From assembly GCF_000522985.1 (NCBI RefSeq), contig NZ_CP007129.1:992001-1056000 (forward strand): DNA of 64,000 nt, in the 5' to 3' direction. The translations under genes and the position numbers were made by a program. The DNA comes from Gemmatirosa kalamazoonensis (GTDB lineage: Bacteria; Gemmatimonadota; Gemmatimonadetes; Gemmatimonadales; Gemmatimonadaceae). The notes beneath the pieces are model-generated. The model did no database searches. It saw only the letters and a list, made by a program, of their open reading frames with translations, and was not told the DNA's origin. Shown one piece after another: positions 16,964-50,303 of this stretch. Within the stretch, counting starts at the first letter, position 1. Every line of letters starts with the position of its first letter.

Positions 16964-19900
16964 ATGGCCCGCAGCAACTCCACGCGCTGGATCGCCGCGC
17001 TCGTCGCGCTCGTCGTCTTCATCGTCCTCGCCTGGCTCCTCGGCCGGATGATGACGCTCACCGACAGCGAGCGGCTGACGCTCCGCATCGTCCTCGTCGT
17101 CCTCGGCGTCGTCACCGCCGCGGCGCTCGCCTGGTTCCTCCGACCACAGACGCCGGCGGCGCCGAAGAAGGAGAAGGATGACGAGCTGGTCGCCGTCGAC
17201 GCCGCGCGCGCCCGCATGCCGCGCGGCGCGTTCGACGCGAAGCCGCTCGTCCTCGTCGTCGGCACCGAGGGCAACTGCAAGACGACCGTCGTCACGCGCG
17301 CGGAGCTCGACCCGGAGCTGCTCGCCGGCGAGTCGCTCGGTGGCGACGCGCCCCCCGCACCGACCACGGCGGCCAACCTCTGGCTCGTGAAGGACGCCGT
17401 GCTCGCCGAGGCGGGCGGGCCGGTGTTCTCCGACGAGGGACGCTGGAAGGGATTCGTGCGCGCGCTGCGCCCGCCGCGCCTCCGCGCCGCGTTAGGCAGG
17501 GGCGCGCCCCCGCCGCGCAGCGCGGTCGTGTGCGTGAGCTGCGACCTGTTCTACTCCGGGGGTGCCGGCGAGCAGCTCGACGCGCTCGCCGCCCTCGGCC
17601 GCCAGCGCCTCGCCGACGCCGCGCGCGAGCTCGGCGTCGCGCTCCCCGTCTACGTGCTGTTCACGAAGGCCGACCGCATCCCGCACTTCGAGGAGTGGTC
17701 GGCGCCGTTCACGCGCGACGAGGTCCGCCCGCCGTTAGGCGCCGCGCTGCCGCTCGCCGGCGACGGAGCCGACGCCGCCGGCGCCTACGCCGAGCGCCTC
17801 GTGCCGCGCGTGGAGGCGGCGTTCGCGGAGATCGTCGGCTCGCTCGCCGGCCGTCGGCTCGACCTCCTCGGCCGCGAGACCGTCCCCGAGCGCCGACTCG
17901 GTGCGTACGAGGTGCCGCGCGAGATCGGCAAGCTCGCCCCCGCGGCGACGCGCTTCCTCGTGGAGCTCTGCCGCCCGCTGCAGCTCGGCGTCAGCCCGAA
18001 GCTGCGCGGCTTCTACTTCGTCGGCGTGCGCCCCGTCGTCGTCACCGATGCCGGCGCCGCGGCGCCCGTCGCCGCAGCCGCGCCGGCGGCCGGTGCCGCG
18101 GGCGGGCGCGCCACCGTCGCGTTCGCGCGCCCGAACATCGGTGGTGCGCTGGGCGCCGTCCCCGGCGCGTACACGCCGGCGACGACCCGACGCGTGCCGC
18201 AGTGGACGTTCCTCGACCGCTTCTTCCCCGACGTCGTCTTCGGCGATCCGGTGCCGGCGGTGCTCGCCGGCGGCGGCACGCGCGTCGCCGGCCTGCGCCG
18301 CACGCTGCTCGGCGCGGGCATCGGGGTCGGCCTCGTGCTGTCGTTGGGCGTGCTCGTGTCGTGGCTCGGCAACCGCAGCCTCGCGCGGCGCACCATCGCC
18401 GCGGCGCGCGCCGTCGAGGCGCTGCCGGTCGTCTCCGCGCCGGCCGGCACCATCGTGCTCCCCGCTCCCGAGGCGCTGCGCCGGCTCGACGACCTGCGCG
18501 TGGTGCTCGACGAGATCCGCGGCTACGAGACGACCCACGTGCCGCTGCACCTCCGCTGGGGCCTGTGGCGCGGCGACGCGCTGTTCGACCGCGGGCGTCA
18601 GGTGTGGGTCACCGGCTATCGCCGCCAGCTCCACGACGTCGCGTGGGCCGCGCTCGTCGACTCGCTCCGTGCGCTGCCCAGCACGCCGCGCCCGGCCGAG
18701 GAGTACGGGCGCGATTACGGCTGGCTGAAGGCGTACCTCGAGCTGACGAACGAGAACAAGCGCGCCACCTCCGTCGACCTCGCGCCCGTGCTGCTGTCCT
18801 CGTGGCAGCGCGGCCAGCAGACCGACGCCGACATCACCGCGCTCGCGCGTCGCCAGTTCGAGTTCTTCTCCGGCGAGGTCGCGCGCGACAATCCGCTGCC
18901 GCAGGCCGCGGACGCGGAGCTCGTCAAGGAGCTGCGCGCGTTCCTCAGCGGCTTCCAGGGCGAGCAGCGCATCTACCAGTTCATGCTCGCCGAGGCGAAC
19001 AAGGCGGCGAAGCCCGCGCGGCTCGTCGACGTCGCGCCGAACGCGGCGGGCGTCGTGAGCGCGCCGGAGGTGCCGGGCGCGTTCACCGCCGCGGGGTGGA
19101 AGGCGATGCAGGACGCCTTCCGCAACTCGGACCGCTTCTTCCAGGGCGAGCGGTGGGTCGTCGGCGACGTCGGCGCGGTGCCGGACCAGGACCGCGCGCG
19201 CCTCGTCGCCGATCTGCGCACGAAGTATCACGCCGACTACGCGCAGCAGTGGCGCAACTACCTCGGCGCGGTGTCGGTCACGCGCCCGAGCTCCGCGGCC
19301 GACGCGGTGACGCGGCTCAACACGTTGGGCGGCGGCCAGTCGCCGCTGCTCGGCGCGCTCGCGCTCGCGGCGCGCAACACCGGCGCGCGCGTCACCGACT
19401 CCGCGCTCGCCGCCGGCTTCCAGCCGGTGCACGCGATCACGCCGCCCGACACGCTCGACAAGTTCGTCACCGATGGGAACAAGCCGTACTCCGACGGGCT
19501 GATCGCGTTGGGCACCTCGGTCGACGCGGTGGCGAAGGCCGCACCGGTGACCGATACGGCGAGCGCCGACGTGAAGCGGCAGGCCGCCACCCAGGCGCTT
19601 CAGAAGGCCAGCGACGCGAAGACCGCGGCGCTCCAGCTGGCCGCGAAGTTCAACGCCGATCCCGCCGCGGCGCAGATCGCGCCCCCGGTGCGCGCGCTGC
19701 TCACCGCGCCCATCGACGCCACCGACGCGCTGCTGCGCGGCGTCTCCACGCTCCGCTTCACCGCCGCCGCGCCGCCGAAGAAGCCGGCCGCCGCGCCGGC
19801 GGGCCCGCCGGTCGGCGGCGGCGCGTCCAACGCGGCCGACCTCGCGAAGAAGATCAACGACCGCGCCGCGCTGCTCTGCCAGCAGCTCTCGCCGGTGCTC

Positions 19901-20536
19901 GCGAAGTTCCCGTTCAACTCCGAGGCGACCACCGAGGCGACGACGAAGGAGGTTACCGAGATGTTCGCGCCCGGCGCCGGCGCGCTGTGGGTGTTCCAGC
20001 AGGAGCGCCTCGGCGGGCTGCTCGAGAAGCAGGGCGACAAGTGGGCGCCCGTGCCTAACGACCAGCAGATCGCGCTGTCGCAGGGCTTCGTGGACTTCTT
20101 CAACCGCGCGGCGCGCGTCTCGGCCGGGCTGTTCGCGGGTGGCGCGGACCCGAAGGTCGTCGTACGCGTGCACGCCATCTCCACCCCCGACGCGCCGCAG
20201 ATCTGGTTCCGTCAGGGGGCGCAGGAAGCGCGCTTCGTGAAGAACACCGCGCCCGCGCAGTTCGTCTGGCCGTCGGCCACCGGCCGCGACGCGGCGATCA
20301 CCGCGACGGTCGTGCGCGCGCGCCGCCCCGACACCAAGAAGACCGTCGCCCGCGCCGCCGGCGACTGGGCGCTGTTCCGCCTCGTCGCGCAGGCCACGAA
20401 GTCCGAGGGCGCGCACGCCGAGTGGAACGACAAGGACGTCGGCACCATCGCCGTCGACTTCGAGTACGAGAGCGGCATTCCCGTGCTCGGCCGGAATGCG
20501 CTCGGCATGGCGTGCGTCGCCCAGGTGACGAAGTAG
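16964..20536 (+). CDS. tssM: Type VI secretion system membrane subunit TssM (IcmF family)
   Basis: Large core protein of the T6SS membrane complex, 1190 residues. TM helices are near residues 8-28, 40-60 and 446-468. The cytoplasmic NTPase-like domain between them has 'VLVVGTEGNCKTT' (97-108) where a Walker A is expected and 'YVLFTKADRIPHFEEW' as the G4/Walker-B-side motif. Asn-Cys replaces the usual x-Gly before Lys, so nucleotide binding is doubtful. The periplasmic region ends with the IcmF/TssM C-terminal beta domain ('QIWFRQGAQEARFV', 'GDWALFRLVAQA'). It follows tssL in one operon. Two internal Leu codons are TTA within GTTAGGC. Confidence 0.9.
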   Translation: MARSNSTRWIAALVALVVFIVLAWLLGRMMTLTDSERLTLRIVLVVLGVVTAAALAWFLRPQTPAAPKKEKDDELVAVDAARARMPRGAFDAKPLVLVVGTEGNCKTTVVTRAELDPELLAGESLGGDAPPAPTTAANLWLVKDAVLAEAGGPVFSDEGRWKGFVRALRPPRLRAALGRGAPPPRSAVVCVSCDLFYSGGAGEQLDALAALGRQRLADAARELGVALPVYVLFTKADRIPHFEEWSAPFTRDEVRPPLGAALPLAGDGADAAGAYAERLVPRVEAAFAEIVGSLAGRRLDLLGRETVPERRLGAYEVPREIGKLAPAATRFLVELCRPLQLGVSPKLRGFYFVGVRPVVVTDAGAAAPVAAAAPAAGAAGGRATVAFARPNIGGALGAVPGAYTPATTRRVPQWTFLDRFFPDVVFGDPVPAVLAGGGTRVAGLRRTLLGAGIGVGLVLSLGVLVSWLGNRSLARRTIAAARAVEALPVVSAPAGTIVLPAPEALRRLDDLRVVLDEIRGYETTHVPLHLRWGLWRGDALFDRGRQVWVTGYRRQLHDVAWAALVDSLRALPSTPRPAEEYGRDYGWLKAYLELTNENKRATSVDLAPVLLSSWQRGQQTDADITALARRQFEFFSGEVARDNPLPQAADAELVKELRAFLSGFQGEQRIYQFMLAEANKAAKPARLVDVAPNAAGVVSAPEVPGAFTAAGWKAMQDAFRNSDRFFQGERWVVGDVGAVPDQDRARLVADLRTKYHADYAQQWRNYLGAVSVTRPSSAADAVTRLNTLGGGQSPLLGALALAARNTGARVTDSALAAGFQPVHAITPPDTLDKFVTDGNKPYSDGLIALGTSVDAVAKAAPVTDTASADVKRQAATQALQKASDAKTAALQLAAKFNADPAAAQIAPPVRALLTAPIDATDALLRGVSTLRFTAAAPPKKPAAAPAGPPVGGGASNAADLAKKINDRAALLCQQLSPVLAKFPFNSEATTEATTKEVTEMFAPGAGALWVFQQERLGGLLEKQGDKWAPVPNDQQIALSQGFVDFFNRAARVSAGLFAGGADPKVVVRVHAISTPDAPQIWFRQGAQEARFVKNTAPAQFVWPSATGRDAAITATVVRARRPDTKKTVARAAGDWALFRLVAQATKSEGAHAEWNDKDVGTIAVDFEYESGIPVLGRNALGMACVAQVTK

Positions 20537-22119
20537 GCTCGCCCGGCCCGACGGAGCGCGACGCGGCGACCGCCCGCTGGGGGGTGGTCGCCGCCGTCGT
20601 CTTCCTGCTCCTGCTGCACGCCGCGCTCGCGTGGCGGCTGCGCACGCTGTCGCTCGTCCCGACCCCGGACGCGGCGACGTATCTCGCGGTGAGCCGCTCG
20701 GTGCGCGCGCTCGGCTACCGGTCGGTGTATCAGTTGGGCGCGCCGCGGCACGTGCTCTACCCGCCCGGGTGGCCGACCGTGCTCGCCCTCCTCTCGCTCG
20801 TCGCCGGCGAGCGGCTCGACGTCGTCGTCGCGCTCGAGGTCGCGCTCTCCACCGCGACGCTCGCGCTGCTGTTCGACGTCGTGCGGCGCGCGTGGTCGCC
20901 GACCGTCGCGCTGCTCGTGCTCGCGGCATGCGCGGTGAACCCGCTGCTGCTCGAGTACGCGGGCGTCGCGCTGAGCGAGGTGCCGTTCATGTTCCTCACG
21001 ACGCTGTGCGTGTGGGCGGCGCAGCGCGCGCGCGCGCAGCCGCGCTACGCGCCCCTCGCCGGCGCCGCCGCGGTCGCGGCGATGCTCGTGCGCAGCGCGG
21101 GCGTCGCCGTCGTCGCCGCGCTCGTCGTGCTCTGGCTCGTCGAGCGGCGCCGGCGCGCGGCGATCGGGCTCGTCGCGGTGGGCGGCGCGTGCGCGACGCT
21201 GTGGGTCGCGTGGGTGCTGAGTGCGCCGGCCCCCGCGCGCCAGGCGAGCTACGCGGCCGATCTGCAGCGCGGCTACGCGCGACCCGCCGGCGTCGCGGCG
21301 GTCGCGGCCCCGTCGTTGCCGGCGCGCGTGCTCGCCCGCGTGCCGCGCAACGCTGCCGACTACGCGCGCCAGCTGCCTGACGCGCTCGCGTTTCCGCGAC
21401 GCGTCAATGGCTGGACGCGCCACGTCCCGGTCCAGCTGCTCGTCCTGGCGCTCGCCGTCGCCGCGCTCGCGGCGTTGTTCCGCCGGTGGGCCGCCGCGGC
21501 GCTCGTCGTCGCGTGCTACGCGGCGGTGCTGCTGGTGTGGCCGTGGGCGCTGCCGCGCTTCCTCGTGCCGGCGCTTCCGTTAGGCATGGTGGCGTTCGTC
21601 GGCGGCGCGTGGGCGCTCGGTGCACGCCTCGGACGGTGGCGGTGGATTCCCGCTGCCGCGGCCGCGGCGCTCGTCGTCGTCACGGCCGCGCGCGCCGACG
21701 CCCGCGCCGTGCGCGCGTCCGCGGCGTGCGACCGCGCCCAGCCGCTCGGCGCGCCGGCATGCCACACGCCGCTCACGTTCGCGGTGCTCGGCGCGCTGCG
21801 CTGGGTCGCCGACAGCACGCCGCGCGACGCGGTCGTCGGCGCGCGCTCGGGCGCGCTTGTGAGCTGGTACGCGCACCGGCGCACGGTCCCGCTCCGCGAC
21901 GCGGTCGCCGCGGCGGACGACGCGCCGGCGTACGTGGTCGTCTGGCGGCGCGGCGGCGCGCGGCGCCCCGTGCTCGACGACGCCACGCCGGCGACGTGCG
22001 CGCGCCTCGGGCTCGCGCGCGCGTGGGGGAGCGACGTGCAGCTGTTCCGCGTGCTGCCTAACGGTGTCGCCGCCTCCGACTCCGCGGCGTGCCGGCTGCT
22101 CCCCGGCCCCGGCGAGTAG
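20512..22119 (+). CDS. Polytopic membrane protein, GT39/ArnT-like glycosyltransferase fold
   Basis: Integral membrane protein of about 535 residues with ten or so TM helices and an N-terminal periplasmic-loop motif 'PTPDAATYLAVSRSV'. That motif resembles the acidic D/E-x-x-x-Y site of GT-C glycosyltransferases that use polyprenyl-phosphate sugars. The C-terminal 120 residues are a soluble domain ('SWYAHRRTVPLRDAV', 'AYVVVWRRGG'). The likely start is GTG 20512, overlapping the tssM stop by 25 bases, because no in-frame ATG lies closer; GTG 20584 would truncate the first helix. It appears to be the last gene of the tss operon by position only. Donor and acceptor are unknown. Confidence 0.65.
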   Translation: MRRPGDEVGSPGPTERDAATARWGVVAAVVFLLLLHAALAWRLRTLSLVPTPDAATYLAVSRSVRALGYRSVYQLGAPRHVLYPPGWPTVLALLSLVAGERLDVVVALEVALSTATLALLFDVVRRAWSPTVALLVLAACAVNPLLLEYAGVALSEVPFMFLTTLCVWAAQRARAQPRYAPLAGAAAVAAMLVRSAGVAVVAALVVLWLVERRRRAAIGLVAVGGACATLWVAWVLSAPAPARQASYAADLQRGYARPAGVAAVAAPSLPARVLARVPRNAADYARQLPDALAFPRRVNGWTRHVPVQLLVLALAVAALAALFRRWAAAALVVACYAAVLLVWPWALPRFLVPALPLGMVAFVGGAWALGARLGRWRWIPAAAAAALVVVTAARADARAVRASAACDRAQPLGAPACHTPLTFAVLGALRWVADSTPRDAVVGARSGALVSWYAHRRTVPLRDAVAAADDAPAYVVVWRRGGARRPVLDDATPATCARLGLARAWGSDVQLFRVLPNGVAASDSAACRLLPGPGE

Positions 22120-22131
22120 CGCTCGGCGCGC

Positions 22132-23958
22132 TCAGCCGCCGCACTGCTGCTGCAGCGGCCCCTCCTCGCGCACCGAGATCGCCCGACGCTGCTGCGGCGA
22201 GCGCGCGAGCCGCTTCGCCTGGCGGATCGCGTCGCACGCGCCGCGCATGTCGTCGGTCAGCACGAGCGCGTCGGAGAGCTTGATGCTCGCCCACGTGCTG
22301 TCGTCGGCGGTCGTGAGGCTCGTCATCAGACCGCGAATCACCGGCACCGCCTGACGCGCCGCGCGCTCCGCCTGGTCCGCGCCGATCCCCTGCGTGAGGT
22401 CGTACGACTGCGCGATGCTGTCGATCGCCAGCCGCGCCGCGGAGTTCTGTGCGCTGCGTACCGGCGCGCGCTCGGGGACCGGGGCGGGATCGGCGCCGCG
22501 CGGCGGCCGCTGGCCCGCATCGGGGCGCGGCGCGTCGGGGCGCGGCGCGACGCTGTCGTGCTTCACGACCGCCACGGGCGTGGCGTCGACCTTCGGCGGC
22601 GTCGAGTCGTGCCGCGCCGAGTCGGCCTTCACGACCGGGGCCGAGTCGGACTTCGTCGCCGACGAGTCCACCACCGCGGTGGCCGGCTTGTGCATGAGCA
22701 TCACCCCCGCCGCGGTGCCGCCCAGCAGCGCGACGGCGAGTACGCCGCCGACGATCAGCCCGCGTCGCCTCGAGTCGCTCGCCGTCGTGGGCGTCGGCGT
22801 GGGCGGCGTGTACGCCGGCGCGGCCGACGTGCCTAACGCCCCGGCCGGCGGCGCGTAGCTGCCGACGGCGGGCGCCACGCCGGCGAGCGTCGCCGCCGAG
22901 ACGTCGGCGCCGTTAGGCACCGTGGGCGTCGGCACCGCCTCCGTCGCCCATCCCGGGCGCGGCGCGCGCCCGCCCGCTTCCTCCTCCTGCCACGCCTCGA
23001 TCGCCGCGCCCAACGCGCGCGCGAACGCGCCGGCGCTCGCCGGACGGTCCGCCGGGTCGCGCGACAGCGCCTGGTCGAGCACCGACTGCACCTGGCGCGG
23101 CCACCGCACCGACGGGCGCACCGCCGTCAGCGGCCGCGGCGGCGTCACGAGCCGCGCCGCCATGCCGTGGTCCGGCGTGTTCGTCGCGAACGGCAGCTCC
23201 GCCGTGAGACACTGGTACGCCACCAGCGCCAGCGCGTAGATGTCGCTCCGCGCGTCGAGCGAGCCGCCCAGCAGCTGCTCCGGGCTCATGAACTCCGGCG
23301 TGCCCACCACGAAGCCCGTCTTCGTCAACGCCGTCCCACCGGACTCGCCGAACGCCTTCGCGATCCCGAAGTCGACGACCTTCACGCGCTCCTCGACGGT
23401 GCCGTCGCCGTCGGTGTCGCCGTCGGCGATCACCATCACGTTGTCCGGCTTGAGGTCGCGGTGCACGATCCCCATCCGGTGTGCCGCGTCGAGCCCCTCG
23501 GCGATCTGCCGCGTCACGGCCGCGGCGCGGGCCGGCGCCATCGGGCCGCCCTCGGTCAGGATCTTCTTCAGCGTCTGCCCCGGCACGTACTCCATGGCCA
23601 GGTACACCACGCCGTTGTCCGTCTCGCCGAAGTCGTAGACGCGCGCCACACGGTCGTGGTCGATGCGGCTCGCGTTCGCCGCCTCGCGGTTGAACCGCGC
23701 CACCGCCGACGCGTCCTGCAGCATCTCCTTGCGCAGCACCTTGATCGCCGCCTGCTGCGGCAGCCGCACGTGCCGCGCGAGGTATACCGTCCCCATCCCC
23801 CCCTCGCCGAGGACGTCCGTCACGAGGTAGCGGTCCGCGATCACGCTCCCGACGAGGTCCTCGCGCAGGTCGGCGGAGCGCAGCGTCGTGCCGTCGGCGG
23901 GGCAGAACACGAGCGCGTCGGCGTACGTGACGCCGCAGACGGAGCAGATCTTCGACAT
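22132..23958 (-). CDS. Membrane Ser/Thr protein kinase with N-terminal zinc ribbon (PknB-like)
   Basis: Hanks-type kinase of 608 residues. Residues 4-20 form a zinc ribbon (C-x2-C ... C). The kinase domain covers 44-330: P-loop GEGGMG (51-56), VAIK-type Lys 73, catalytic HRDLKPDN (Asp 168), DFG at 196-198 and 'GTPEFMSPEQ'. A Pro/Thr/Ala linker leads to one TM helix (about 395-420) and a periplasmic Asp/Ser/Lys-rich and helical tail ending 'GPLQQQCGG'. All catalytic residues are present. Convergent with the operon ending at 22119. T6SSs are often switched on by Hanks kinases (PpkA-type), so it may act on the T6SS or on the PGEFTRMF protein; this is inference from position. Confidence 0.9.
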   Translation of the reverse strand: MSKICSVCGVTYADALVFCPADGTTLRSADLREDLVGSVIADRYLVTDVLGEGGMGTVYLARHVRLPQQAAIKVLRKEMLQDASAVARFNREAANASRIDHDRVARVYDFGETDNGVVYLAMEYVPGQTLKKILTEGGPMAPARAAAVTRQIAEGLDAAHRMGIVHRDLKPDNVMVIADGDTDGDGTVEERVKVVDFGIAKAFGESGGTALTKTGFVVGTPEFMSPEQLLGGSLDARSDIYALALVAYQCLTAELPFATNTPDHGMAARLVTPPRPLTAVRPSVRWPRQVQSVLDQALSRDPADRPASAGAFARALGAAIEAWQEEEAGGRAPRPGWATEAVPTPTVPNGADVSAATLAGVAPAVGSYAPPAGALGTSAAPAYTPPTPTPTTASDSRRRGLIVGGVLAVALLGGTAAGVMLMHKPATAVVDSSATKSDSAPVVKADSARHDSTPPKVDATPVAVVKHDSVAPRPDAPRPDAGQRPPRGADPAPVPERAPVRSAQNSAARLAIDSIAQSYDLTQGIGADQAERAARQAVPVIRGLMTSLTTADDSTWASIKLSDALVLTDDMRGACDAIRQAKRLARSPQQRRAISVREEGPLQQQCGG

Positions 23959-24116: not shown

Positions 24117-24911
24117 ATGTCCTTCCGTACCGCCGTGCGCGACGCGCGCCTCGCGGCCATGTCCGTGGCCACGCTCACCCTCGCCGCGTCCGCAGGCGCC
24201 CAGCAGCCGGTCGTCAAGGATGTCGGGGCGAGCGACGCCCGCCCGACCGTGGCCGTGCTCTACTTCACGAATGGCGCGCTGTTGTCGAACGCGGACTACG
24301 CCCCGCTGAGCAAGGGCATGGCGGAGATGCTCATCACCGAGCTCTCCCGGAACCCCGGCGTCCGTGTCGTCGAGCGCGACCGGCTCCAGCAGCTGCTGGC
24401 CGAGCAGAATCTGGGGAGCGGCGACCGGGTGGACAAGGAGACCGCGGTCAGGCTCGGGAAGATCCTCGGCGCGCACCATCTCCTCATGGGGTCGTTCGTC
24501 ATCGACCCGAAGCAGAACATGCGCATCGACGTCCGCTCCGTGAACACCGAGACGTCGCAGGTCGAGTACGTCGAGTCGATCGACGGCAAGGCCGAGCGCA
24601 TGCTCTCGATGGTCGGGGAGCTCGGCGAGAAGGTGAATGCGGGGCTCAAGCTGCCCGCGATCCCGGTGCGCGTCCCCGGCACGTCAGGATCGAACGCCGG
24701 CATCGCGTCCAACGTCGCGCGCGTCACCTCGAAGGTCGACCAGCTCCGCGCCGCGATGATGATGAGCAACGCGCTCGAGCAGCAGGACCGCGGCAACGTC
24801 CAGGGCGCCATCGCGCTGTACAAGCAGGCGATCGACACCTACCCGGACTTCGAGCGCGCGAAGGTCCTCCTCGCCTCGCTCGAGAACGGCCAGAAGCGCC
24901 AGACGCCCTGA
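24117..24911 (+). CDS. CsgG/FlgO-like exported protein with C-terminal TPR
   Basis: Protein of 264 residues with a signal peptide (cleavage near 'ASAGAQQ'). The fold matches the CsgG/TolB-N/FlgO group: 'TVAVLYFTNG', 'LSKGMAEMLITELSRNPGVRVVERDRLQQLLAEQ' (quoted piecewise) and 'LGKILGAHHLLMGSFVID'. A TPR-like helix pair near the C-terminus is seen in 'QQDRGNVQGAIALYKQAIDTYP'. ATG 24117 has GAGAGG six bases upstream. It is transcribed divergently from the zinc-ribbon kinase and convergently with the InlB-repeat operon, which begins with a second CsgG-like gene, so the two may serve one envelope structure. Confidence 0.8.
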   Translation: MSFRTAVRDARLAAMSVATLTLAASAGAQQPVVKDVGASDARPTVAVLYFTNGALLSNADYAPLSKGMAEMLITELSRNPGVRVVERDRLQQLLAEQNLGSGDRVDKETAVRLGKILGAHHLLMGSFVIDPKQNMRIDVRSVNTETSQVEYVESIDGKAERMLSMVGELGEKVNAGLKLPAIPVRVPGTSGSNAGIASNVARVTSKVDQLRAAMMMSNALEQQDRGNVQGAIALYKQAIDTYPDFERAKVLLASLENGQKRQTP

Positions 24912-24932
24912 GCGTCCGGCGCCTCGTCTCGG

Positions 24933-27900
24933 TCACCGCTTCCGGAACTGCGCGGTGACCGAGGTCGCCTGGCTCATCGTCACGGTGCACGTCAGCGCGC
25001 TCCCCGTGCACGCGCCCGACCAGTTGAACGAGGTGGTCGTCGGCCCCGGCACCGCGGTGAGCGTCACGACCGTCCCCACGGGATAGTCCGCCGGCGGGCA
25101 CGCGCCGCCGCCCGCCGCGCAGTTGATCCCCGCCGGCGACGACGTCACCGTGCCGCTCCCCTGGACGCCGACCATCGTCAGCGTGAGCGTCGTGGTGAAC
25201 GTCGCCGTCACGCTCTGCGGGGCGCCCATCGACAGCGTGCACGTCGGAGCCGTTCCGCTCGACGCGCACGCGCCGCCCCAACCGGCGAACGTCGCCCCCG
25301 CCGGCCCGGTCACCGTCAGCGTGACCTGCGTGCCGATCGGGAAGCTCGCACCGCACGCCCCCGGGCAGTTGATGCCATTCGGGCCCGTCACCGTCACGCC
25401 AGCGCCGAACACGTTCAACGACAGCCCGACGTTCCCGCCGCCGGTGCTCGTGAACGTCGCCGTGACGCTCTTCGCGGCGTCCATGGTGACGACGCATGCA
25501 CCGGTGCCCGAGCACGCGCCCGACCAGCCGGTGAACGTGCTGCCGCTCCCGGGGGTTGCCGTGAGCGTCACGCTCGTGGCGGGCGCGAAGCTGGCGGTGC
25601 ACGCCCCCGGGCAGTCGATGCCGCTCGGCGACGAGCCGACCGCGCCCGAGCCGGTGCCGGCGAAGCTCACGTCGAGCGTGAGCGGCTGCACCACGATGCT
25701 GAACAGCGCGGTGACGCTCTTCGGCCCGTCCATCGTGATCGTGCACGTCGGCGACGTGCCGCTCCCCACGCACGCGCCGTCCCACCCGCCGAAGGTCACG
25801 TTCTGCCCGCCCGGGAGCGCCGTCAGCGTCACGACCGTGCCCGGCGCGTAGCTCGACGTGCACGAGCCGGGGCAGTCGATGCTGCCCGGCGACGACGACA
25901 CCGCGCCGGTGCCCGTGCCCGCGATCGTGACGCCGAGCGGGAACGTCGTCACGATGCGGCTGAAGCTCGCCGTCACGCTCTTCACCGCGTCCATCGTCAC
26001 CGCGCACGTGGGCGCCGTGCCGCTGCACGCGCCGCCCCACCCGCCGAACGTGCTCCCCTGGCTCGCCGCCGCGGTGAGCGTCACGACCGTGCCGGCGCCG
26101 AGGGTCGTCGAGCACGTGCCGGGGCACGAGATGCCGACCGGGCTCGTCACCGTGCCGTCTCCCGTCCCGCCGGTGCTCACCGACAGCGCGAACGTCGGCA
26201 CCGTCGGCAGCGTGAACTGCACCGACACCGACGTCCCCGCGGTCAACGTCACCGTGCAGTTCTGGCCGGTGGTGCCGGCGCACGCGCCGCCCCATCCGCC
26301 GAACGTGCTCCCCGCGCTGGGCGTCGCCGTCAGCACGACGGTCGTGCCCGACGGGAAGGAGCCCGAGCACGAGCTCCCGGCGATGCCGATGCCGCACACG
26401 ATGCCCGCGGGGCGCGACGTCACCGTTCCCGCTCCCGTCGTGCCGAGCGCGGCGCGGATCGTCACGCCGAGCGGCGTCGGGGCGAACGACGCCGTCACCA
26501 CCGCGTCGGCGAGCGGGGCGATCGTGCACGTCGGGCCGGTGGCGGTGCAGCCGTTCCACGCGATGAAGTCGCTGCCCGCCGCCGGCGTCGCGGTGAGCGC
26601 CACGTCGTCGCCCGCCGGCACCGAGATGGTGCACGTCGTGACGTCGGGGCTCGTCGGGCTCACCGGGCCGGTCAGCGCGCACGCGGGGGCGCCGTTCGCG
26701 GTCACGGTCCCCGCGCCGCCCGTCGCCGCGCGCTGCAGGTTCAGCGTCAGCGTCACCACGCGCTGCGTGAACACCGCGCCGACGGCGCTGATCTGGTTCA
26801 CGTTCACGCGGCACGCGCCCGTTCCGCTGCACAGCCCCGTCCAGCCCGCGAAGATGCTCGTCGGGTTCGCCGTCGCGGTGAGCGTCACGATCGTGCCGAA
26901 CGGCACCGTGGCGCCGCACGCGCCGGCCGGCGGCACGCCGCGCGCGAGCGTGCACGTCGCGACGGGCGTCGAGCTGCCCGGCGTCGCGAGCGCGATCGTG
27001 CCGCCCCCGTTGCCCGTGAGCAGGATCGACACGCCGAGCGGCGCCGAGAAGTCCGCGCCGACGACCGCGTCGACGTCGAGCCCCACGTCGCAGATCGGCT
27101 CCGACGTCCCCTCGCACACCCCCGTCCATCCGACGAACGCGTCGGGCGCGGTGGCGACCGCCGTGAGCCGGATCTTCGTGCCTTCCACGTACGACGCGCC
27201 GCACGCGTCGCCCGTCTTGCACTCGATGCCTAACGGCGCGCTCTTCACGATGCCCGCCCCGGTGCCGCGCACGCCGACGGCGAGCTTGCGCACCGCCGCG
27301 AACTGCACCGACACGGCGCGCGGCGTCGACGCGTCGAGCACGCACGTCGTCGCGGCGCCCACCGAGGCACACGCGTCGCCCCAGCCGGCGAACTGCGTCG
27401 TCCCGGCGTCCGGCGTCGCGGTGAGCGTCACCTGCGCGTCGCCCGGGAACGTGAACGCGCATCCGCCCTGCCCTTCCTGTCCGCTCGGCGCCGGCTGCGC
27501 CTGTCCGTTCAGCACGCGGCAGTCGATCCCCGCCGGCGACGAGCGCACCGTTCCCGAGCCGTGCCCACCGCCCACCGTCACCGCGAACGGCGACGGCCGC
27601 GGCGCGACCGCGAGATCGAGCCCGCCGCTCGCCGCGCCGAACGACGCCGTGACGCGCGCGCGCCCCGCCGTCAGCGCCGTCACCATGCCCGTCGCCGGGT
27701 CGACGCGCGCCACGGAAGGCGCGTCGCTCTGCCAAGTGACCGTGCGACCCGTCACCGTCTGCCCCGTCGTCGACACGATCGCTGCGTTCAGCGCGAGTGT
27801 GTTCCCGAGCTCCAACCGCAGCCGCGTCCCCGCCGGCGGCGCCGCGCCGTCGGCCGGCGTCACCGTCACGGTGGCGACCTCGAACAGCTGCACCGGATCG

Positions 27901-28358
27901 GGCACCGTCGACGTCGCCCCCGCCTGCAGGCGGAGCGGCCCCACCGTCTGCGCGTCGACTTCGCGGTCGTCGGCGAGCAGCGTGAGGTTCAGCGTCACGA
28001 CGCACGCCGACCCGGCGCTCTCGCGCTGCGGGTCGGCGAGGCACGGCGCGAGGTCGATCGAGAGCGGCACCTGCTGCGTCGCGACGTCGCCGAGCGAGAG
28101 CGTCTGCGGCCCGCCTAACGTCACGCTCGTGCCGTCGGCGCGCCGATAGGTCGCCTGCACGCGCAGCCGCACCACCGCCGCGCTCCCGCGCGCGAACGAC
28201 GGCAGCTGCGCGGTGAGCCCGATCCGCGCCGGTGTCTGCGCGTCGGGATCCCGGCGCCCGGGGCTCAGCGCGTCGTCCAGCCGCCCGCAGCCGACGGCGA
28301 GGACGGCCGACAGCGCGGCGAGCGCGGTCCGCACGGTGAAAGCGTTAGGCACGCGCAT
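24933..28358 (-). CDS. Giant lipoprotein with ten InlB-type (Listeria-Bacteroides-like) repeats
   Basis: Lipoprotein of 1141 residues. It has a signal peptide with lipobox ('VLAVGC'), a domain of about 170 residues, a BIG2-like Ig domain ('VTWQSDAPSVARVDPATGMV'), then ten repeats of 70-80 residues. The repeat consensus is G-x-G-x-V-x-S-x-P-x-G-I-x-C ... V-T-L-T-A ... F-x-G-W-x-G-A-C-x-G ... C-x-V-x-M ... S-V-T-A-x-F, as in divergent InlB B-repeats. Each repeat carries two Cys pairs, suggesting disulfides. The last repeat ends four residues before the stop, with no sorting signal. Its ATG overlaps the upstream stop (TGATG). It is probably a cell-surface fibre or adhesin. Confidence 0.82.
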   Translation of the reverse strand: MRVPNAFTVRTALAALSAVLAVGCGRLDDALSPGRRDPDAQTPARIGLTAQLPSFARGSAAVVRLRVQATYRRADGTSVTLGGPQTLSLGDVATQQVPLSIDLAPCLADPQRESAGSACVVTLNLTLLADDREVDAQTVGPLRLQAGATSTVPDPVQLFEVATVTVTPADGAAPPAGTRLRLELGNTLALNAAIVSTTGQTVTGRTVTWQSDAPSVARVDPATGMVTALTAGRARVTASFGAASGGLDLAVAPRPSPFAVTVGGGHGSGTVRSSPAGIDCRVLNGQAQPAPSGQEGQGGCAFTFPGDAQVTLTATPDAGTTQFAGWGDACASVGAATTCVLDASTPRAVSVQFAAVRKLAVGVRGTGAGIVKSAPLGIECKTGDACGASYVEGTKIRLTAVATAPDAFVGWTGVCEGTSEPICDVGLDVDAVVGADFSAPLGVSILLTGNGGGTIALATPGSSTPVATCTLARGVPPAGACGATVPFGTIVTLTATANPTSIFAGWTGLCSGTGACRVNVNQISAVGAVFTQRVVTLTLNLQRAATGGAGTVTANGAPACALTGPVSPTSPDVTTCTISVPAGDDVALTATPAAGSDFIAWNGCTATGPTCTIAPLADAVVTASFAPTPLGVTIRAALGTTGAGTVTSRPAGIVCGIGIAGSSCSGSFPSGTTVVLTATPSAGSTFGGWGGACAGTTGQNCTVTLTAGTSVSVQFTLPTVPTFALSVSTGGTGDGTVTSPVGISCPGTCSTTLGAGTVVTLTAAASQGSTFGGWGGACSGTAPTCAVTMDAVKSVTASFSRIVTTFPLGVTIAGTGTGAVSSSPGSIDCPGSCTSSYAPGTVVTLTALPGGQNVTFGGWDGACVGSGTSPTCTITMDGPKSVTALFSIVVQPLTLDVSFAGTGSGAVGSSPSGIDCPGACTASFAPATSVTLTATPGSGSTFTGWSGACSGTGACVVTMDAAKSVTATFTSTGGGNVGLSLNVFGAGVTVTGPNGINCPGACGASFPIGTQVTLTVTGPAGATFAGWGGACASSGTAPTCTLSMGAPQSVTATFTTTLTLTMVGVQGSGTVTSSPAGINCAAGGGACPPADYPVGTVVTLTAVPGPTTTSFNWSGACTGSALTCTVTMSQATSVTAQFRKR

Positions 28359-29614
28359 CAGAAGCGGGAGAGGATCGTGAGGCCGAGCGAGCCGCCGGCC
28401 ACCGTGGCCGAGCCGCCCGGGCGGTCCGCTGCCGCGGAGCGCACGTGCCCGGTCTGCACGCGCGCGAACGGTTGCACCGTCACGCCGCCGATGCGGCGCG
28501 CGACGCCGGCCGTGAGCCCCGCGCCCGTCGTCGACGCCGTGAGCAGCGCGTCGTCGAACCCGAGACCGCTCTGGTAGCGGCCGTCGACCGCGAGCAGCAC
28601 GTCGGTGCGCGCCGTCACCGGGATCGACGTGCGCACACCGCCGTCGAGGTACTCGCCGCTCGAGCCGCTCACCGACACGCCGTCGCGCGCGAAGCTCGAG
28701 CGCCACCGGCTCGACACCCACAGCACCGCCTCGCGCACGCGCGGCGCCGCGAGGTGCAGCTGCGCGTCCGCGCTGATCACGGGGCCGAGGCGCACGCGCG
28801 CCGCCGACGGGGTGGTCGGCACGGGCTGCCCGGACGTCGGCGCGACGACGCCCGCGCGCAGCCGGTCGGACCCGAAGAAGTCGCCCGCCACGCTGAGGCT
28901 GAGCCGCTCGCGCCCGACGAGACCGTCGGCGCCGATCGAGACGCGCGTCACGCCGCCCGGCCGGAAGTCCGCCCCCTCCGCGCCGACGGCGAGCGAGCGG
29001 ATCGGCTGATAGCTGTCGTGCAGCTCGTACGACAGGCCGCCGGCGATCGCCCAGCGGCCGGCGCGCCGCGCGGAGAGCACGCCCACCGTGCCGCTCGCCC
29101 CCGCGCCGACCGGCGGCGCGCTGAGGCCGAGCGCCGGCGCGGCGAGCACGCGCACCGCCGTGAGCTGCTCGGCGTCGAGCTTCGCGCGGCCGGTCGGCGC
29201 GTTCGCGCCTAACGTGACGATGAGCGCGTCACCCGCCACGCGGCCGGTCGCGCGCAGGCGCACGTCGCTCGTCCCGGCGAGCGTCGCCGTGCGGCTGCCC
29301 GGCTTGCGCGGGTCGGCCGGGTCGAACGTCACCGTGCCGTACGCGTACACCGACGTCACATCCACCGTCCACGCGCTGCCGAGCGGCACGGCGAGCGTGA
29401 CCGGCACCGTGAGCTGGTAGGCGCGGCGCACGCGCAGCGAGTCCTCACCCCCGAACGCGCCCTGGAACAGCCCGCCCCCGCCGAACGTCATCGCCTCCGC
29501 GGTGACCCCGGCGCCGAACGCGCGGAGCCCCACGAGCCGGTCCTGCGCCCGGGCAGACGAGGCGGCCGCGCCGAGCAGCGCGACGGTGCCGAACGAGAAG
29601 CGGCGCGCGCTCAT
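28358..29614 (-). CDS. Predicted outer-membrane beta-barrel protein
   Basis: Protein of 418 residues with a signal peptide ('TVALLGAAASSARAQ') and a body of short alternating strands ending in Phe ('GGSLGLTILSRF'), the classic C-terminal barrel signature recognised by BamA. The sequence resembles transporter/'putative outer membrane' beta-barrels without a named family. It is the middle gene of three: its start overlaps the stop of the CsgG-like gene (ATGA) and its stop overlaps the start of the InlB-repeat lipoprotein. The context suggests a pore or anchor for the giant lipoprotein. Gene boundaries are firm; function is inferred. Confidence 0.7.
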   Translation of the reverse strand: MSARRFSFGTVALLGAAASSARAQDRLVGLRAFGAGVTAEAMTFGGGGLFQGAFGGEDSLRVRRAYQLTVPVTLAVPLGSAWTVDVTSVYAYGTVTFDPADPRKPGSRTATLAGTSDVRLRATGRVAGDALIVTLGANAPTGRAKLDAEQLTAVRVLAAPALGLSAPPVGAGASGTVGVLSARRAGRWAIAGGLSYELHDSYQPIRSLAVGAEGADFRPGGVTRVSIGADGLVGRERLSLSVAGDFFGSDRLRAGVVAPTSGQPVPTTPSAARVRLGPVISADAQLHLAAPRVREAVLWVSSRWRSSFARDGVSVSGSSGEYLDGGVRTSIPVTARTDVLLAVDGRYQSGLGFDDALLTASTTGAGLTAGVARRIGGVTVQPFARVQTGHVRSAAADRPGGSATVAGGSLGLTILSRF

Positions 29615-30609
29615 GGGCGGTTCACCGTGATCACCACCGTCGCGGTTGACGTGGCGAACGTCGGGTCCGTGGTGCGCGACGTCGCGCCCGTGGTCGCCGT
29701 GGTGATGAAGTCGAGCGGGCGGTTCAGTCGGTCGATCGTCACCCCGATCGCCGCGTCGACCGCGCGGATCCCCGGCACGAGCACCGGGCTCGCGACTCCC
29801 GACTCCGAGACGCGGCGCACCTCGCCCGCGCGCACGCGTGCGTCCGTGAACCCGGGCGCCTCGCGCGCCGCGCGCCGGAACTCCGACTCCGCGCCGCGCA
29901 GGTCGCCGAGGTACTGCAGCCGCACGCCGCGTCCATAGGAGAGCAGCGCGGTCAGGTTCGCCGTCGGACGCGATTCCACCGCCGCGCGCTCGTCCGGCGC
30001 CAGCGTGATGCCGAGCGCGTCGAACAGTCGGAGCGCGAGCGCCTTCTCCGCCTCCAGCACGTCCGTGAGCTGCGCCGTCGCGTCCACCGCGTCGGCGAGC
30101 GTCCCCTGCGCGACGTCCGCGAGCTGCACGCCGAGCCGCAGGTCGCGTCCCGCCGGCAGCGCCGTGAGGCGTCCCATGACCAGCCGCCGCGCCTGGATCA
30201 GCCGCCCGACCCGCGGCGCCGACGACGAGTCGACCCGGCCGGCCGAGACGAGATCGAGCTCGCGCAGCACGTCGCCGAGCCGCGCCCGCTCCACCACCGT
30301 CACGCGCCGGCTGCGCGCGAGATCCGTCGTCAGGAGATCGGCGAGCGCGAACGCGAGCGGCGACAGCGTTCCGCCAGGCGACGAGTCGGTGAGCGCGAAC
30401 GGCGGAACGCCGATCGTGCGCGCGCCCGCGCGTCCCGCGGACGAGTCCACCGCGACGGCGCCGGTGGCGGGGTCGATGACCGGCGCGCGCGTCGGCACCG
30501 GGGGTCCGGCGGGCGGCGAGCCGGCGCCGGAAGCACACGCGCCCGAGAGCAGCGTGGCGATCGCGCACACCAGACGGCGGCGCGGGGGGAAAACGCTCAG
30601 GAGCGGCAT
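29611..30609 (-). CDS. CsgG-like lipoprotein
   Basis: Lipoprotein of 332 residues with signal sequence and lipobox 'LLSGAC'. The CsgG-type core is seen in 'RTIGVPPFALTD', 'ALADLLTTDLARSRRVTVVER', 'LGDVLRELDLVSAGRVD' and 'RLIQARRLVMGRLTALPAG' (pieces). A TPR-like stretch ('GDLRGAESEFRRAAREAPGF') and a C-terminal Thr-rich tail follow. CsgG forms an outer-membrane secretion channel for curli; homologues often assemble in operons with surface proteins, as here. I chose ATG 30609 because the extra ten residues of the longer form precede the signal peptide. First gene of a three-gene operon with overlapping start/stop codons. Confidence 0.72.
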   Translation of the reverse strand: MPLLSVFPPRRRLVCAIATLLSGACASGAGSPPAGPPVPTRAPVIDPATGAVAVDSSAGRAGARTIGVPPFALTDSSPGGTLSPLAFALADLLTTDLARSRRVTVVERARLGDVLRELDLVSAGRVDSSSAPRVGRLIQARRLVMGRLTALPAGRDLRLGVQLADVAQGTLADAVDATAQLTDVLEAEKALALRLFDALGITLAPDERAAVESRPTANLTALLSYGRGVRLQYLGDLRGAESEFRRAAREAPGFTDARVRAGEVRRVSESGVASPVLVPGIRAVDAAIGVTIDRLNRPLDFITTATTGATSRTTDPTFATSTATVVITVNRP

Positions 30610-32406: not shown

Positions 32407-34110
32407 ATGGCGCAGTCATCTTCTCTGGTTCGGCGGTCCGACGACCGGCTCCTGCTCGCGCAGCAGGGCGTGTCGACGCTACCGAGCCCGATCGCGCTCC
32501 AGCTGTTGGACATCCCGTTCGTGCTCCCGGTGCAGAAGCAGCCGCCGCGCGAGAACGGGCGGCTGCCGGAAGGGATGTGGCGGCTGGAGTACGAGCTGAT
32601 CGGGGCGGATCGGACGCGATACCGCGTCCGCGTGACGGGCGACCCCGAGCTCGGCCTCCCGTTCGGGCGCGACGCCGACGTGCTGCTCGCGCTGTTCCGG
32701 CTGCTGGACGAGGAGCGCGACGTCCACGATCTCGCCACCGGCACGTTCCGGCAGCCGAGCTTCCAGATGATCTGCCGCGCGCTCGGACTCGGCGCCACGG
32801 GACCGCTCGTGCGCCGCATCCGCGACGCGCTCCGCCGACTTTCCCACGTCCGGATCGAGAGCCGCGTGCTCGTCGACCGCGCCGAGGCGGCGGCGCGGCT
32901 GCTCGCGCAGGACGGGAGCGCCACCCCCGCCGCGCCGACGGCGAGCACCGTCCGCCGCCACGAGGTGGAGGAGACCCGCTGGCTGCTGGAGTACCGCACC
33001 GAGGAGCGCACCGTGGAGTCGCGCGGCGACGCGCCGATCGACGACGTCACCGACGGCAGCGGGGAGCGCGTCGAGCGCACGCTCTGGATTCACGAGCTGC
33101 GACTGAACCCGTTCTGGGTCGGTCAGGCGATCTCGGGATGGGCCGGCTGGATCGACGTCGAGCGGCATGCGGACCTGAAGAGCATCACCGCGCGGCGGCT
33201 CTACCAGCTCTGCGCCGCGCACGCCGCCCGGCACGTGCGCATCCCGTGGGCGCTCCCCGAGCACGACCTGCGCACCGCGTGCATGCTCACGCTCGACGGG
33301 AAGAAGCCGACCCGCGTGCGGCAGATGCTGAGCGAGGCCGCCGCGGAGCTCGTCGAGGCCGGCGTCCTCGCCGACCACGCGTGGCGCGGCGCGCCCCGCC
33401 GCGGCCCGATGACGCTCGAGCTGACCCCGGGGCCGCTGCTCCAGCTCAGCGGCCTGCTACGCGGCATCGGTCTCACCGACCCGCCCGACGTCCGCGTGCA
33501 GTACGCCCTGCTCCGCGCGTTCGGCGTCACCGCGCCACGGGCCCGCGCGCTGATCGCCGAGAAGCCGGGGCAGGTGGCGGAGGTGCTGCTGCGCGCCTGT
33601 CACCTGCGCGCGACGGACCCCGGCGCCGTGTCGAAGTCGTGGGCGGGGTGGATCATCCACCACGTCGAGCACGACACCAGCTTCGCCGGCGAGGTCGCGT
33701 TCCATGAATGGCGCCGCACCGCGCTCGCCCGGCTCGACGGGCAGACGGATGCCCGCCCGGCCGCCCCGTCCGCGGGGCCCTCCGCGCGTGAGCGGGCCGT
33801 ATCGGTGAGCGGGCCCGCGCCGGCTCCCGCGCCCACACCAGTCGCGCGTCCGGCGGCCGATCCCGACGCGGACGCGAGGTGGCAGCGTGTGCTGGCCGTG
33901 GTGCGGCCGCAGCTCTCGATGCTCGACTACTTCGGGGTGGAGGACGCCGTCGCCGTGGGCGGCGACGAGGGCACGCTCGTGCTCGCGGTCACGAACGACA
34001 TCGCGGCGCGTGCCCTCCACCGTGCGCTCCCCCGGCTGACGACGGTACTCGGCGCCCACGATGGCGGGCCGACGGAGATCCGCGTCGTTCTCTCGACCCC
34101 AGCGGCCTGA
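32407..34110 (+). CDS. Putative replication initiator with C-terminal DnaA domain-I-like module
   Basis: Protein of 567 residues. Residues 20-430 match the layout of plasmid replication initiators that carry winged helices: 'GLPFGRDADVLLALFRLL', 'SFQMICRALGLGATGPLVRRI', 'LWIHELRLNPFW', 'SITARRLYQLCAAHA' and 'LLEAG'-type helices near 330. A Pro/Ala linker follows (about 440-485). Residues 490-567 ('RWQRVLAVVRPQLSMLDYF', 'GDEGTLVLAVTNDIAARAL', then a final strand) resemble the DnaA N-terminal domain that contacts the replicative helicase. It starts at ATG 32407. Neighbours parA, parB and upstream repeats support a replication role. The family assignment is by pattern, not by search. Confidence 0.7.
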   Translation: MAQSSSLVRRSDDRLLLAQQGVSTLPSPIALQLLDIPFVLPVQKQPPRENGRLPEGMWRLEYELIGADRTRYRVRVTGDPELGLPFGRDADVLLALFRLLDEERDVHDLATGTFRQPSFQMICRALGLGATGPLVRRIRDALRRLSHVRIESRVLVDRAEAAARLLAQDGSATPAAPTASTVRRHEVEETRWLLEYRTEERTVESRGDAPIDDVTDGSGERVERTLWIHELRLNPFWVGQAISGWAGWIDVERHADLKSITARRLYQLCAAHAARHVRIPWALPEHDLRTACMLTLDGKKPTRVRQMLSEAAAELVEAGVLADHAWRGAPRRGPMTLELTPGPLLQLSGLLRGIGLTDPPDVRVQYALLRAFGVTAPRARALIAEKPGQVAEVLLRACHLRATDPGAVSKSWAGWIIHHVEHDTSFAGEVAFHEWRRTALARLDGQTDARPAAPSAGPSARERAVSVSGPAPAPAPTPVARPAADPDADARWQRVLAVVRPQLSMLDYFGVEDAVAVGGDEGTLVLAVTNDIAARALHRALPRLTTVLGAHDGGPTEIRVVLSTPAA

Positions 34111-34137
34111 CGGCCCCGTGTGGCCTCTGCTGGCCCG

Positions 34138-35406
34138 TTAGTGACGCCCGAGTGCCCCTAGCCTGGCGTTGACGCGGGTGAGCTGCGTCTCCAGGTGGGT
34201 CCGGAGCAGCTCGGCGTCGCCGGCGGCCAGCGTTTCGACCGGAGCGTTCACCTCGATGAGGAAGCCGCCGCCGCGCCGCGGGCGCAGCACGCAGACCGGG
34301 CGGTCGTGCACGGCGCCGGCCGGCGCGTCGTCGAGGCCGAGCAGGCGCCGTAGCGCGGTCAGGCGCCGCGCGTCGTCGGCCTCGCTCGCGAGCCGCTCCA
34401 GGTCGCGGTAGGCCGCCCGGGCGAGCCGCTCCTCCACCGGCGCGGGGTCGCCACCCCCGGCGCGCGCCAGCAGCTCGGGAGAGAGCGACCGTCGGATGCG
34501 GAGCAGCATGTTCACCTTGCCGTGGCTCCAGCCCATGACCGCGCCGAGCGTCCGCACGTTGTCGCGGTACCCGTCGGCCCGGCGCCGCTCCTGGACCTCG
34601 GTGACGAGGGCCGCCTCCTGCCAGGTCGTGAAGTTCTCGCGGTGGAGGTTCCCCCGCAGCACCGTGGCCGCCGCGGCCGCGTTCGACATCGGTCCGCGAT
34701 CGATGCCCGGTACGGTGTCCAGGCCCGCCAGCCGGGCGGCAGCGAGCCGCCGGTGTCCCGACAGACACTCGAGCCTGCCGTCACCGAGCGGCCGGACCTC
34801 GACGGGCACTCGGAGCCCGTGCTCCGCCACGTCGTAGGCGAGCTCGGCCAACCGGGCCGCCTCGGCCGTGAGGCGCATGAAGAGCGGTGCGCCATCGGGA
34901 CTCACGAGCGCGTCGAGGGATCCGGCCCGCGCGACCGCCTCGCGGACGCTCGTGACGGCGGCGGCGGACGGACGGCCCTTTGGCTGGAACGGCGAAGGGT
35001 GGATCGCATCGAGCGGCATCTCGCGCACCTCGAGGCGCGATGCCTCGGCGGCCGCAGAGGCCGCGGACGAGGTGGGGGGGGCGGCGGGCGCCTCGTCCGC
35101 GGAGGCGCGCGGTGCGCGGGCACGCTTCGGCGCGGGCGGCTCGCTGCCGGCGACATCGGCGGCTGCGGGCGCCACATTCGCTTCCACGGTGGTCGTCTCG
35201 CCGGCCGGGCTCCGGCTCGGAGCGCCCGCCGCCGGAGCGGCCTCCGTCGGGTCCTCGGCCGCCGGGCCTTCGATCGCGTCCATGGTGTGCGGGTCGGGCA
35301 GCTGCTCCGTCGCGAGCGCCTGGGTCGCGGACATCAGCAGCTCGGCTCGGCTCGGCTTCACCTTCCCGGTCGCCGGCGCGGTGCCCTTGTTCGGTCGGAG
35401 GGCCAT
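34138..35406 (-). CDS. parB: ParB-like partition protein
   Basis: Centromere-binding protein of 422 residues. After a disordered Ala/Pro-rich N-terminus (1-130), the ParB/Srx domain has 'LDAIHPSPFQPKGRPSA' (in part) and 'LECLSGHRRLAAARLAGLDTVP', the conserved GHRR CTP-binding motif. A helix-turn-helix follows ('NVRTLGAVMGWSHGKVNMLLRIRR' in part). ATG 35406 lies two bases after the parA stop, so the pair is an operon. The stop faces the rep stop across 27 bases. Targets are probably the GTCCAACGTTGGAC palindromes beyond parA. Confidence 0.85.
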   Translation of the reverse strand: MALRPNKGTAPATGKVKPSRAELLMSATQALATEQLPDPHTMDAIEGPAAEDPTEAAPAAGAPSRSPAGETTTVEANVAPAAADVAGSEPPAPKRARAPRASADEAPAAPPTSSAASAAAEASRLEVREMPLDAIHPSPFQPKGRPSAAAVTSVREAVARAGSLDALVSPDGAPLFMRLTAEAARLAELAYDVAEHGLRVPVEVRPLGDGRLECLSGHRRLAAARLAGLDTVPGIDRGPMSNAAAAATVLRGNLHRENFTTWQEAALVTEVQERRRADGYRDNVRTLGAVMGWSHGKVNMLLRIRRSLSPELLARAGGGDPAPVEERLARAAYRDLERLASEADDARRLTALRRLLGLDDAPAGAVHDRPVCVLRPRRGGGFLIEVNAPVETLAAGDAELLRTHLETQLTRVNARLGALGRH

Positions 35407-35408
35407 GG

Positions 35409-36122: not shown

Positions 36123-36415
36123 TACGGGGCCGAGTCGTCGGCGGTGTTGCGGGTCGTGGTGGGATCGACGCCGCTGAAGTTCGAAACTAAAAAGGTGCAG
36201 AACGCGCTGCCAAGCGTCGCCGCGGCCGGAAACCTCCGCTCGGCTCGGAAGCCCGTCTCGGCGTCGCGCGTCGATCTGGCCCGGCCGCTCCGAAGCATGC
36301 CACACACCGTCTCACGAACGTCACACAGCAACGACCCGTACCGCGCGGTCGCCCTCGCTCCGGATCGCACCGTCACTCGGCGGCGGCATGCGCCGGCGCT
36401 GCGTCCCGTGACGGT

Positions 36416-48803: not shown

Positions 48804-48823
48804 CCATCAGACGGGAGGACGCC

Positions 48824-49360: not shown

Positions 49361-49376
49361 CGCGACCGGAGGCGAC

Positions 49377-50300: not shown

Positions 50301-50303
50301 TGC

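Follow-up and report, generated by a model that had tools for sequence, protein, structure and literature searches.

In a stretch of 64,000 nucleotides from Gemmatirosa kalamazoonensis, to which we refer as the window (positions 992001-1056000 of replicon C3), we find a unit of five genes in which a CsgG-like lipoprotein, a predicted outer-membrane barrel and a large repeat lipoprotein are encoded by one operon, adjoined by the genes of a second CsgG-like protein and a Ser/Thr kinase. As the most credible of the readings considered here, though tentatively, we hypothesize that the unit specifies an autonomous outer-membrane complex that displays the repeat lipoprotein and whose sensing arm is formed by the second CsgG-like protein and the kinase. 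C3 comprises 1,106,233 bases and replicon C2 5,311,527 bases; the passages of the genome description cited here give strain KBS708 a 1,106-kb element and a 5,312-kb chromosome (PMC3974934). The genes of the unit, with labels assigned in this analysis and positions counted within the window, are:

29611-30609, minus strand: D, 332 amino acids, a CsgG/TolB-N-fold lipoprotein with C-terminal TPR-like helices and no transmembrane hairpins (Pfam, AlphaFold).
28358-29614, minus strand: B, 418 amino acids, a predicted porin-like outer-membrane barrel (AlphaFold, structural matches).
24933-28358, minus strand: C, 1141 amino acids, a large lipoprotein with a conserved N-domain (CN), Big_2 and ten four-cysteine InlB-like repeats.
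24117-24911, plus strand: A, 264 amino acids, a periplasmic CsgG/TolB-N-like and TPR protein, convergent with C.
22132-23958, minus strand: STK, a Ser/Thr kinase (Pkinase, 155.9 bits), divergent from A.

The start and stop codons of D, B and C, all on the minus strand, overlap at both junctions (ATGA for D/B, TGATG for B/C), which confirms the single operon proposed in the first-pass annotation, itself made from the sequence alone. A lies on the opposite strand and converges on C, with 21 bases between the two genes, and is therefore outside the operon. The signals of the module proteins are consistent with an envelope location: D carries the lipobox LSGAC and C the lipobox AVGC, and A has a type-I-like signal and no lipobox. 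These calls come from pattern matching and inspection, with no trained predictor, the window's own lipoboxes being read from the sequence by eye.

Among 59 genomes (a set that, like the 179 family genomes surveyed below, includes that of G. kalamazoonensis), we found matches to B in 32 and to D in 54 (both at E≤0.001; many of the D matches are weak ones in much longer frames and share the domain only), to A in 37 (E≤1e-15) and to C in 12 (E≤1e-10; several through the repeats only). All 31 gene-called members of the B family have a D gene directly upstream on the same strand, with a gap of -4 to 173 bases; since every pair is adjacent and co-oriented, we conclude that the pairing is not a matter of chance. 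Conservation of the operon was the check suggested in the first-pass annotation, and this adjacency, together with the retention of the unit across genera, gives it a positive answer. Five more B loci (L076, L081, L086, L087, L101) were detected by tblastn only and stand outside the 31. Because our gene caller, trained on eight GC-rich genes of the window, misses genes in less GC-rich genomes, we based the locus maps on tblastn searches queried with proteins of the window or of its own genome. Contigs judged to be identical were counted once (L120 and L122 being G023; L121, G124; L123, G100; L124, G107; L125, G101; L126, G179; L128, G033; L129, G122; and L131, G009), and L127, which has the five genes and no type VI secretion system (T6SS) gene on its 13-kb contig, was left out of the counts.

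The D-B pair occurs in two settings. In the ruv-linked type, a longer TPR-CsgG protein (about 450 amino acids) and a barrel stand together without a CN match alongside, flanked by what we take, from the sequences, to be a DnaB/RadA-like gene and yebC-ruvC-ruvA-ruvB. Such pairs are found in many Gemmatimonadaceae (L071, L072, L074, L075, L077, L081, L082, L104, L107-L110), and are perhaps the older form of D-B. In the window type, D is short and B has about 400 amino acids, and most loci also contain a CN lipoprotein, A and STK; in Gemmatirosa-like relatives C, A and a transmembrane Ser/Thr kinase join the D-B pair.

Both A (60.2 bits) and D (42.9 bits) exceed the cut-off of 20.8 for the Pfam family CsgG (PF03783), and the earlier remark that a second CsgG-like TPR protein adjoins the operon holds for A. 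The match of A comes in two pieces (profile positions 8-98 and 125-160) that are separated by just 4 residues in the protein. An AlphaFold prediction of D, made from an alignment of 31 relatives, has a mean predicted local distance difference test score (pLDDT) of 74, with ten-residue means of at least 84 over residues 61-270, except for 57-76 at residues 111-140. The predicted fold belongs to the broad TolB-N/PelC/LpoB/CsgG class, the matches being TolB-N (Z 13.9), FlgT (12.0), the CadC periplasmic domain (11.6; 199 residues aligned, over both the alpha/beta and the helical parts), PelC (10.2; 113 aligned, root mean square deviation 3.2), GNA1162 (10.2), LpoB (10.0) and CsgG (9.4). Searching solved structures by sequence, we obtained for the D alignment mostly TPR proteins and no CsgG among the best 60 of 201 rows, and for the A alignment TPR proteins together with CsgG at E 0.05-0.06.

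In the superposition with CsgG, residues 62-202 of D (141 residues) span residues 47-249 of CsgG (203 residues), and at the TM1 site the model connects two strands by a 5-residue turn. At the two hairpin sites, whose positions in D and A we presume from general knowledge of CsgG, the lengths are 21-26 and 32-34 residues in 31 aligned rows of D and 22-24 and 33-42 residues in 10 rows of A. At neither site does any row carry an insertion large enough for a hairpin; the longest departure, found in a single A row, amounts to 9 additional residues. Neither protein can therefore form a CsgG pore. Curlin repeats and CsgF gave no match in the whole genome at E≤0.001, with a positive E. coli control. 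The first-pass annotation had envisaged CsgG-type secretion pores and had itself named the lack of transmembrane hairpins as the decisive counter-evidence; with both hairpins absent from D and A the pore is rejected, as is a curli system, for which neither the curlin repeat nor CsgF was found. Of its further suggestion, a different surface fibre system, one part survives without the CsgG pore: a surface structure is plausible because a co-oriented operon with a long repeat lipoprotein is conserved across genera, and a fibre-like structure of another kind may be built by C itself. On the structural model, the fold class of D does not imply fibre secretion.

B ends in Arg-Phe and has no Pfam match at E≤1, hence none to the Slam barrel domain; its alignment likewise found no solved structure by sequence at E≤5. 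The AlphaFold model (mean pLDDT 88.9) has 16 long strands, counted on its DSSP line. It begins with a low-confidence signal-like helix (residues 10-25), enters the first strand at residue 32, contains no TPR scaffold, and has a helix in the third long loop, which is a porin trait. The structural matches are outer-membrane barrels, namely CdiB (19.1), FhaC, porins, BamA, CymA and PelB (Z 15.2, 266 aligned, root mean square deviation 4.6). As these are barrels of many functions, the fold does not identify the cargo, and the fold search does not discriminate among them.

In C, Pfam recognises ten stretches of Flg_new_2 (divergent InlB B-repeat) and one Big_2 domain. Of its 43 cysteines, one belongs to the lipobox and two to the N-domain, and every one of the ten repeats contributes four, so that the description of C as a ten-repeat, cysteine-rich lipoprotein stands. 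Copies in relatives have 3 to 12 C-type repeats, counting uncut copies that have repeats, and tblastn with the window's own CN domain finds a CN-type lipoprotein in most window-like loci; the CN profile that we also used was built from 18 loci that are among those it subsequently matched. In G015:C3, three tandem lipoprotein paralogues (L097, 583-6845) lie close to a further D-B-CN locus, the second in that genome. A literature search pairing the InlB B-repeat with type VI secretion found no paper.

STK has, in its sequence, an N-terminal CxxC, one transmembrane-like stretch and a tail beyond it. It adjoins A in 13 other loci as well as in the window, but no STK match turned up in any of the 20 A loci that we retrieved from outside the module.

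Beside the unit in the window, STK is followed by one intervening gene, for a glycosyltransferase, and then by genes of a T6SS:

20584-22119, plus strand: a PMT_2-type membrane glycosyltransferase (Pfam PMT_2, 28.1 bits), between TssM and STK.
16964-20536, plus strand: TssM (IcmF; IcmF-related, 199.2 bits), a T6SS membrane-complex protein, beside the module.
16334-16933, plus strand: TssL (DotU, 131.9 bits).
14171-15544, plus strand: TssK, second copy (T6SS_VasE, 420 bits).

The glycosyltransferase has no partner in a clustering of the relatives' neighbouring genes and is probably outside the module. The remaining T6SS genes are at 958-976 kb of the same replicon, where a family search identifies VgrG, TssG, F, E and A, ImpE, TssC and another TssK, and where sequence features suggest ClpV, Hcp and TssB in this first cluster. 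The system has two TssK genes (the window copy and C3:974169-975461), and of the 27 family genomes whose TssK hit is strong, 26 have at least two TssK matches. A plasmid survey, in the entries drawn on here, lists a 1,106-kb Gemmatimonadaceae plasmid with a T6SS of type i4b (PMC9113992). A nucleotide search against a plasmid collection gave no match, in a tool that may omit the records of this genome itself.

Across the 179 family genomes, B (E≤1e-25) is present in 46 and TssK (E≤1e-40) in 30, 27 of them strong, with both in 22 (Fisher test 6e-10, a value that ignores phylogeny). B and TssK share one contig in 12 of these 22, with starts 10.7-23.9 kb apart. We mapped 10 of the 12, leaving out G098 and G114, and observed D-B-C, convergent A, STK and then TssM in eight (the window, G015, G021, G094, G095, G101, G107, G123). 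In 7 of the 10 mapped loci STK lies immediately next to TssM; a single gene separates the two in the window and in G015, where it encodes another InlB-type lipoprotein. In G008, C stands between A and a rearranged D-B, and STK adjoins TssM; in G122, D-B-A-STK is near VgrG-ClpV-TssG-TssF. ClpV and VgrG share the module's contig in G027, and A, C and STK share the TssK contig in G023.

The link to the T6SS appears real but is not obligate, because the full set of five genes is retained in six genomes that lack a TssK hit. In all, 24 of the 46 B-bearing family genomes lack a TssK hit, an absence that in draft genomes may reflect incompleteness; 13 of the 24 were mapped (12 and G033) and 11 remain unmapped. 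Of the 12, six keep D-B-C-A-STK in order (G104, G105, G110, G111, G125, G179), two have D-B-C on a contig that ends before A (G103, G178) and four, with a more distant B, have D and B alone by tblastn (G076, G084, G155, G156), the CN profile giving weak downstream matches in G084 and G155 (E 0.001-0.002). In G033, D-B and A-STK are on two contigs, and there is no TssK. Conversely, 8 of the 30 T6SS genomes lack B (two of the eight being weak TssK hits), and in genus g21 the five genomes that possess both carry B and TssK on different contigs. Two genomes without a TssK hit, G104 and G105, have, as judged by eye, the same genes upstream as the T6SS-bearing G095 and G107, one encoding a protein with CATNPVTGRRELSL and the other AMP-ligase-like; this points to a single site at which the module was kept and the T6SS next to it was either lost or inserted.

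Three further observations concern the secretion genes themselves. A divergent second TssB/TssC pair (27-33% identity to this genome's; L159/L160, L163, L167) accompanies the usual pair in G019 and G020 and, in G052, adjoins TssK on a short contig, so that there are possibly two sheath types. A 624-amino-acid protein (window 12113-13987) without a Pfam match at E≤0.001 has a first part that is conserved between two TssK genes of other T6SS clusters. A 338-amino-acid protein by the first TssK (L112, 64-1080), also without a Pfam match at E≤0.001, is matched in the T6SS clusters L114, L162 and L170.

Among the closest known systems is PelBC, in which, according to the passages cited, a 16-stranded barrel is joined to a ring of PelC lipoproteins (PMC12141448), an example of a lipoprotein ring of D's fold class seated on such a barrel. 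Both systems have a lipoprotein of this fold class adjoining a 16-stranded outer-membrane barrel, and TPR helices; here, however, the TPR belongs to lipoprotein D, barrel B lacks a TPR scaffold, and the next gene encodes a large repeat lipoprotein. Over the D, B and TPR features compared, the likeness is one of kind only, because one defining Pel feature is absent. With the CsgG channel, D shares the periplasmic domain fold, the Pfam family and the lipobox, whereas both hairpins are missing from D and A, the genome has no curlin or CsgF, and the barrel is a separate protein. TolB-N, LpoB, GNA1162, FlgT and CadC are the best structural matches of D, CadC covering the helical part as well, yet D, a lipoprotein bearing TPR-like helices, has a barrel gene as its partner and contains no subsequent TolB propeller. 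Slam combines TPR and barrel next to a lipoprotein gene, but in one protein rather than two, without the CsgG-like fold, and B has no Pfam match. The PpkA/Tag arm and TssJLM of T6SS resemble the locus in having a Ser/Thr kinase and envelope proteins beside TssM-TssL-TssK, and differ in that no TssJ exceeds the cut-off here and the module persists without a T6SS.

In the arrangement that we favour, D, lipid-anchored in the periplasm and with a predicted TolB-N/PelC/CsgG fold and TPR-like helices, would sit under or around barrel B, and the two would place C, a disulphide-rich rod, at or near the cell surface, acting like PelBC or Slam in kind and being a member of neither. A, soluble, periplasmic and of D's family, would form with the transmembrane STK a sensing arm that reports the state of the envelope, or contact, to the cytoplasm. 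Such a unit would be autonomous, sharing its locus in many Gemmatimonadaceae with a T6SS whose activity it may tune. Several observations weigh against this reading. No CN match stands beside the ruv-linked D-B pairs or in L100 and L102, and the CN protein of L129/L189 does not adjoin B; C therefore cannot be the sole client. The CN lipoproteins of L096, L097 and L103 have no detected repeats, G030 encodes a CN-type lipoprotein but yields no match to B or A, and A occurs without STK in L102 and L103. The matches of B are generic, CdiB, FhaC and porins outscoring PelB, and D could sense rather than scaffold, because its longest match, CadC, is a sensor. We stress that D-B contact, surface exposure of C and binding of A to STK are themselves inferred.

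That D-B is a general porin and envelope-stress sensor unit, with C a separate adhesin merely travelling along, is unlikely: it would account for ruv-linked pairs without CN and for the modelled alignment of D with CadC over its alpha/beta and helical parts, and it is opposed by the overlapping stop and start codons of the window's B and C genes and by the CN-type lipoprotein that adjoins B in the majority of window-like loci. We consider it rather unlikely that the module is a dedicated T6SS part, in which D (or D-B) would be an outer-membrane anchor replacing TssJ and A-STK a firing switch, as PpkA is. Its attraction lies in the shared contigs and the proximity of STK to TssM described above, and in TssJ, which gives no match over the cut-off in the 59 genomes and none at E≤10 in this genome. 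The TssJ evidence is weak, however: sub-cut-off matches (E≤10) occur in 13 of the 59 genomes (best in G008, E 0.001), and TssJ-less T6SS are common, TssJ and TsmK both being missing in 27.5% of a 1096-genome set in the portion of that survey cited (PMC10564176). Of 14 control genomes, 1 exceeds the cut-off. D, A and C themselves have no T6SS-SciN (PF12790) match at E≤1. This reading loses ground above all through the genomes that lack a TssK hit and yet retain the complete five-gene set, besides the T6SS genomes without B and the separate contigs in g21.

A trans-envelope contact sensor, in which C rods would sense a neighbour, D-B would couple to A, A would switch the kinase, and the complex would anchor or license a TssJ-less T6SS where present, appears improbable. 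A shade more doubtful is a PelBC-like exporter of polysaccharide, in which D would form the lipoprotein ring and B the barrel, and to which the modelled PelC-like fold of D, the 16 predicted strands of B and the nearby PMT_2 glycosyltransferase would lend themselves; that glycosyltransferase is unpartnered in relatives, and, as a weaker objection, no family beyond C, A, STK and T6SS genes was seen recurring by window-type pairs, whose neighbours were not annotated by family search. Nonameric CsgG-type pores exporting a curli-like or other fibre are very improbable: the Pfam matches of A and D and a repeat-rich secreted neighbour would suit them, against which stand the missing hairpins, curlin and CsgF, and the fact that C has its own lipoprotein signal.

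Elsewhere in the window, a replication-initiator-like gene (RPA, 21.7 bits, below cut-off), ParB and ParA lie beside the module at 32407-36305, and the GC skew changes sign at about 32 kb; this region is likely the replication origin of the 1.1-Mb replicon. At 48800-51443, PqqD-like, MauE-like and NTP_transf_5 genes stand in a row that resembles a modified-peptide cluster.

The autonomous display complex that we propose would be a conserved outer-membrane unit of a large, hard-to-grow soil phylum, two of whose genes belong to a Pfam family named for curli transport; the CsgG label by itself does not signify a curli pore. As a defined unit of five genes with natural T6SS-plus and T6SS-minus versions at seemingly one chromosomal site, it offers a test bed for lipoprotein-barrel pairs that may display rods, sense contact or replace TssJ.

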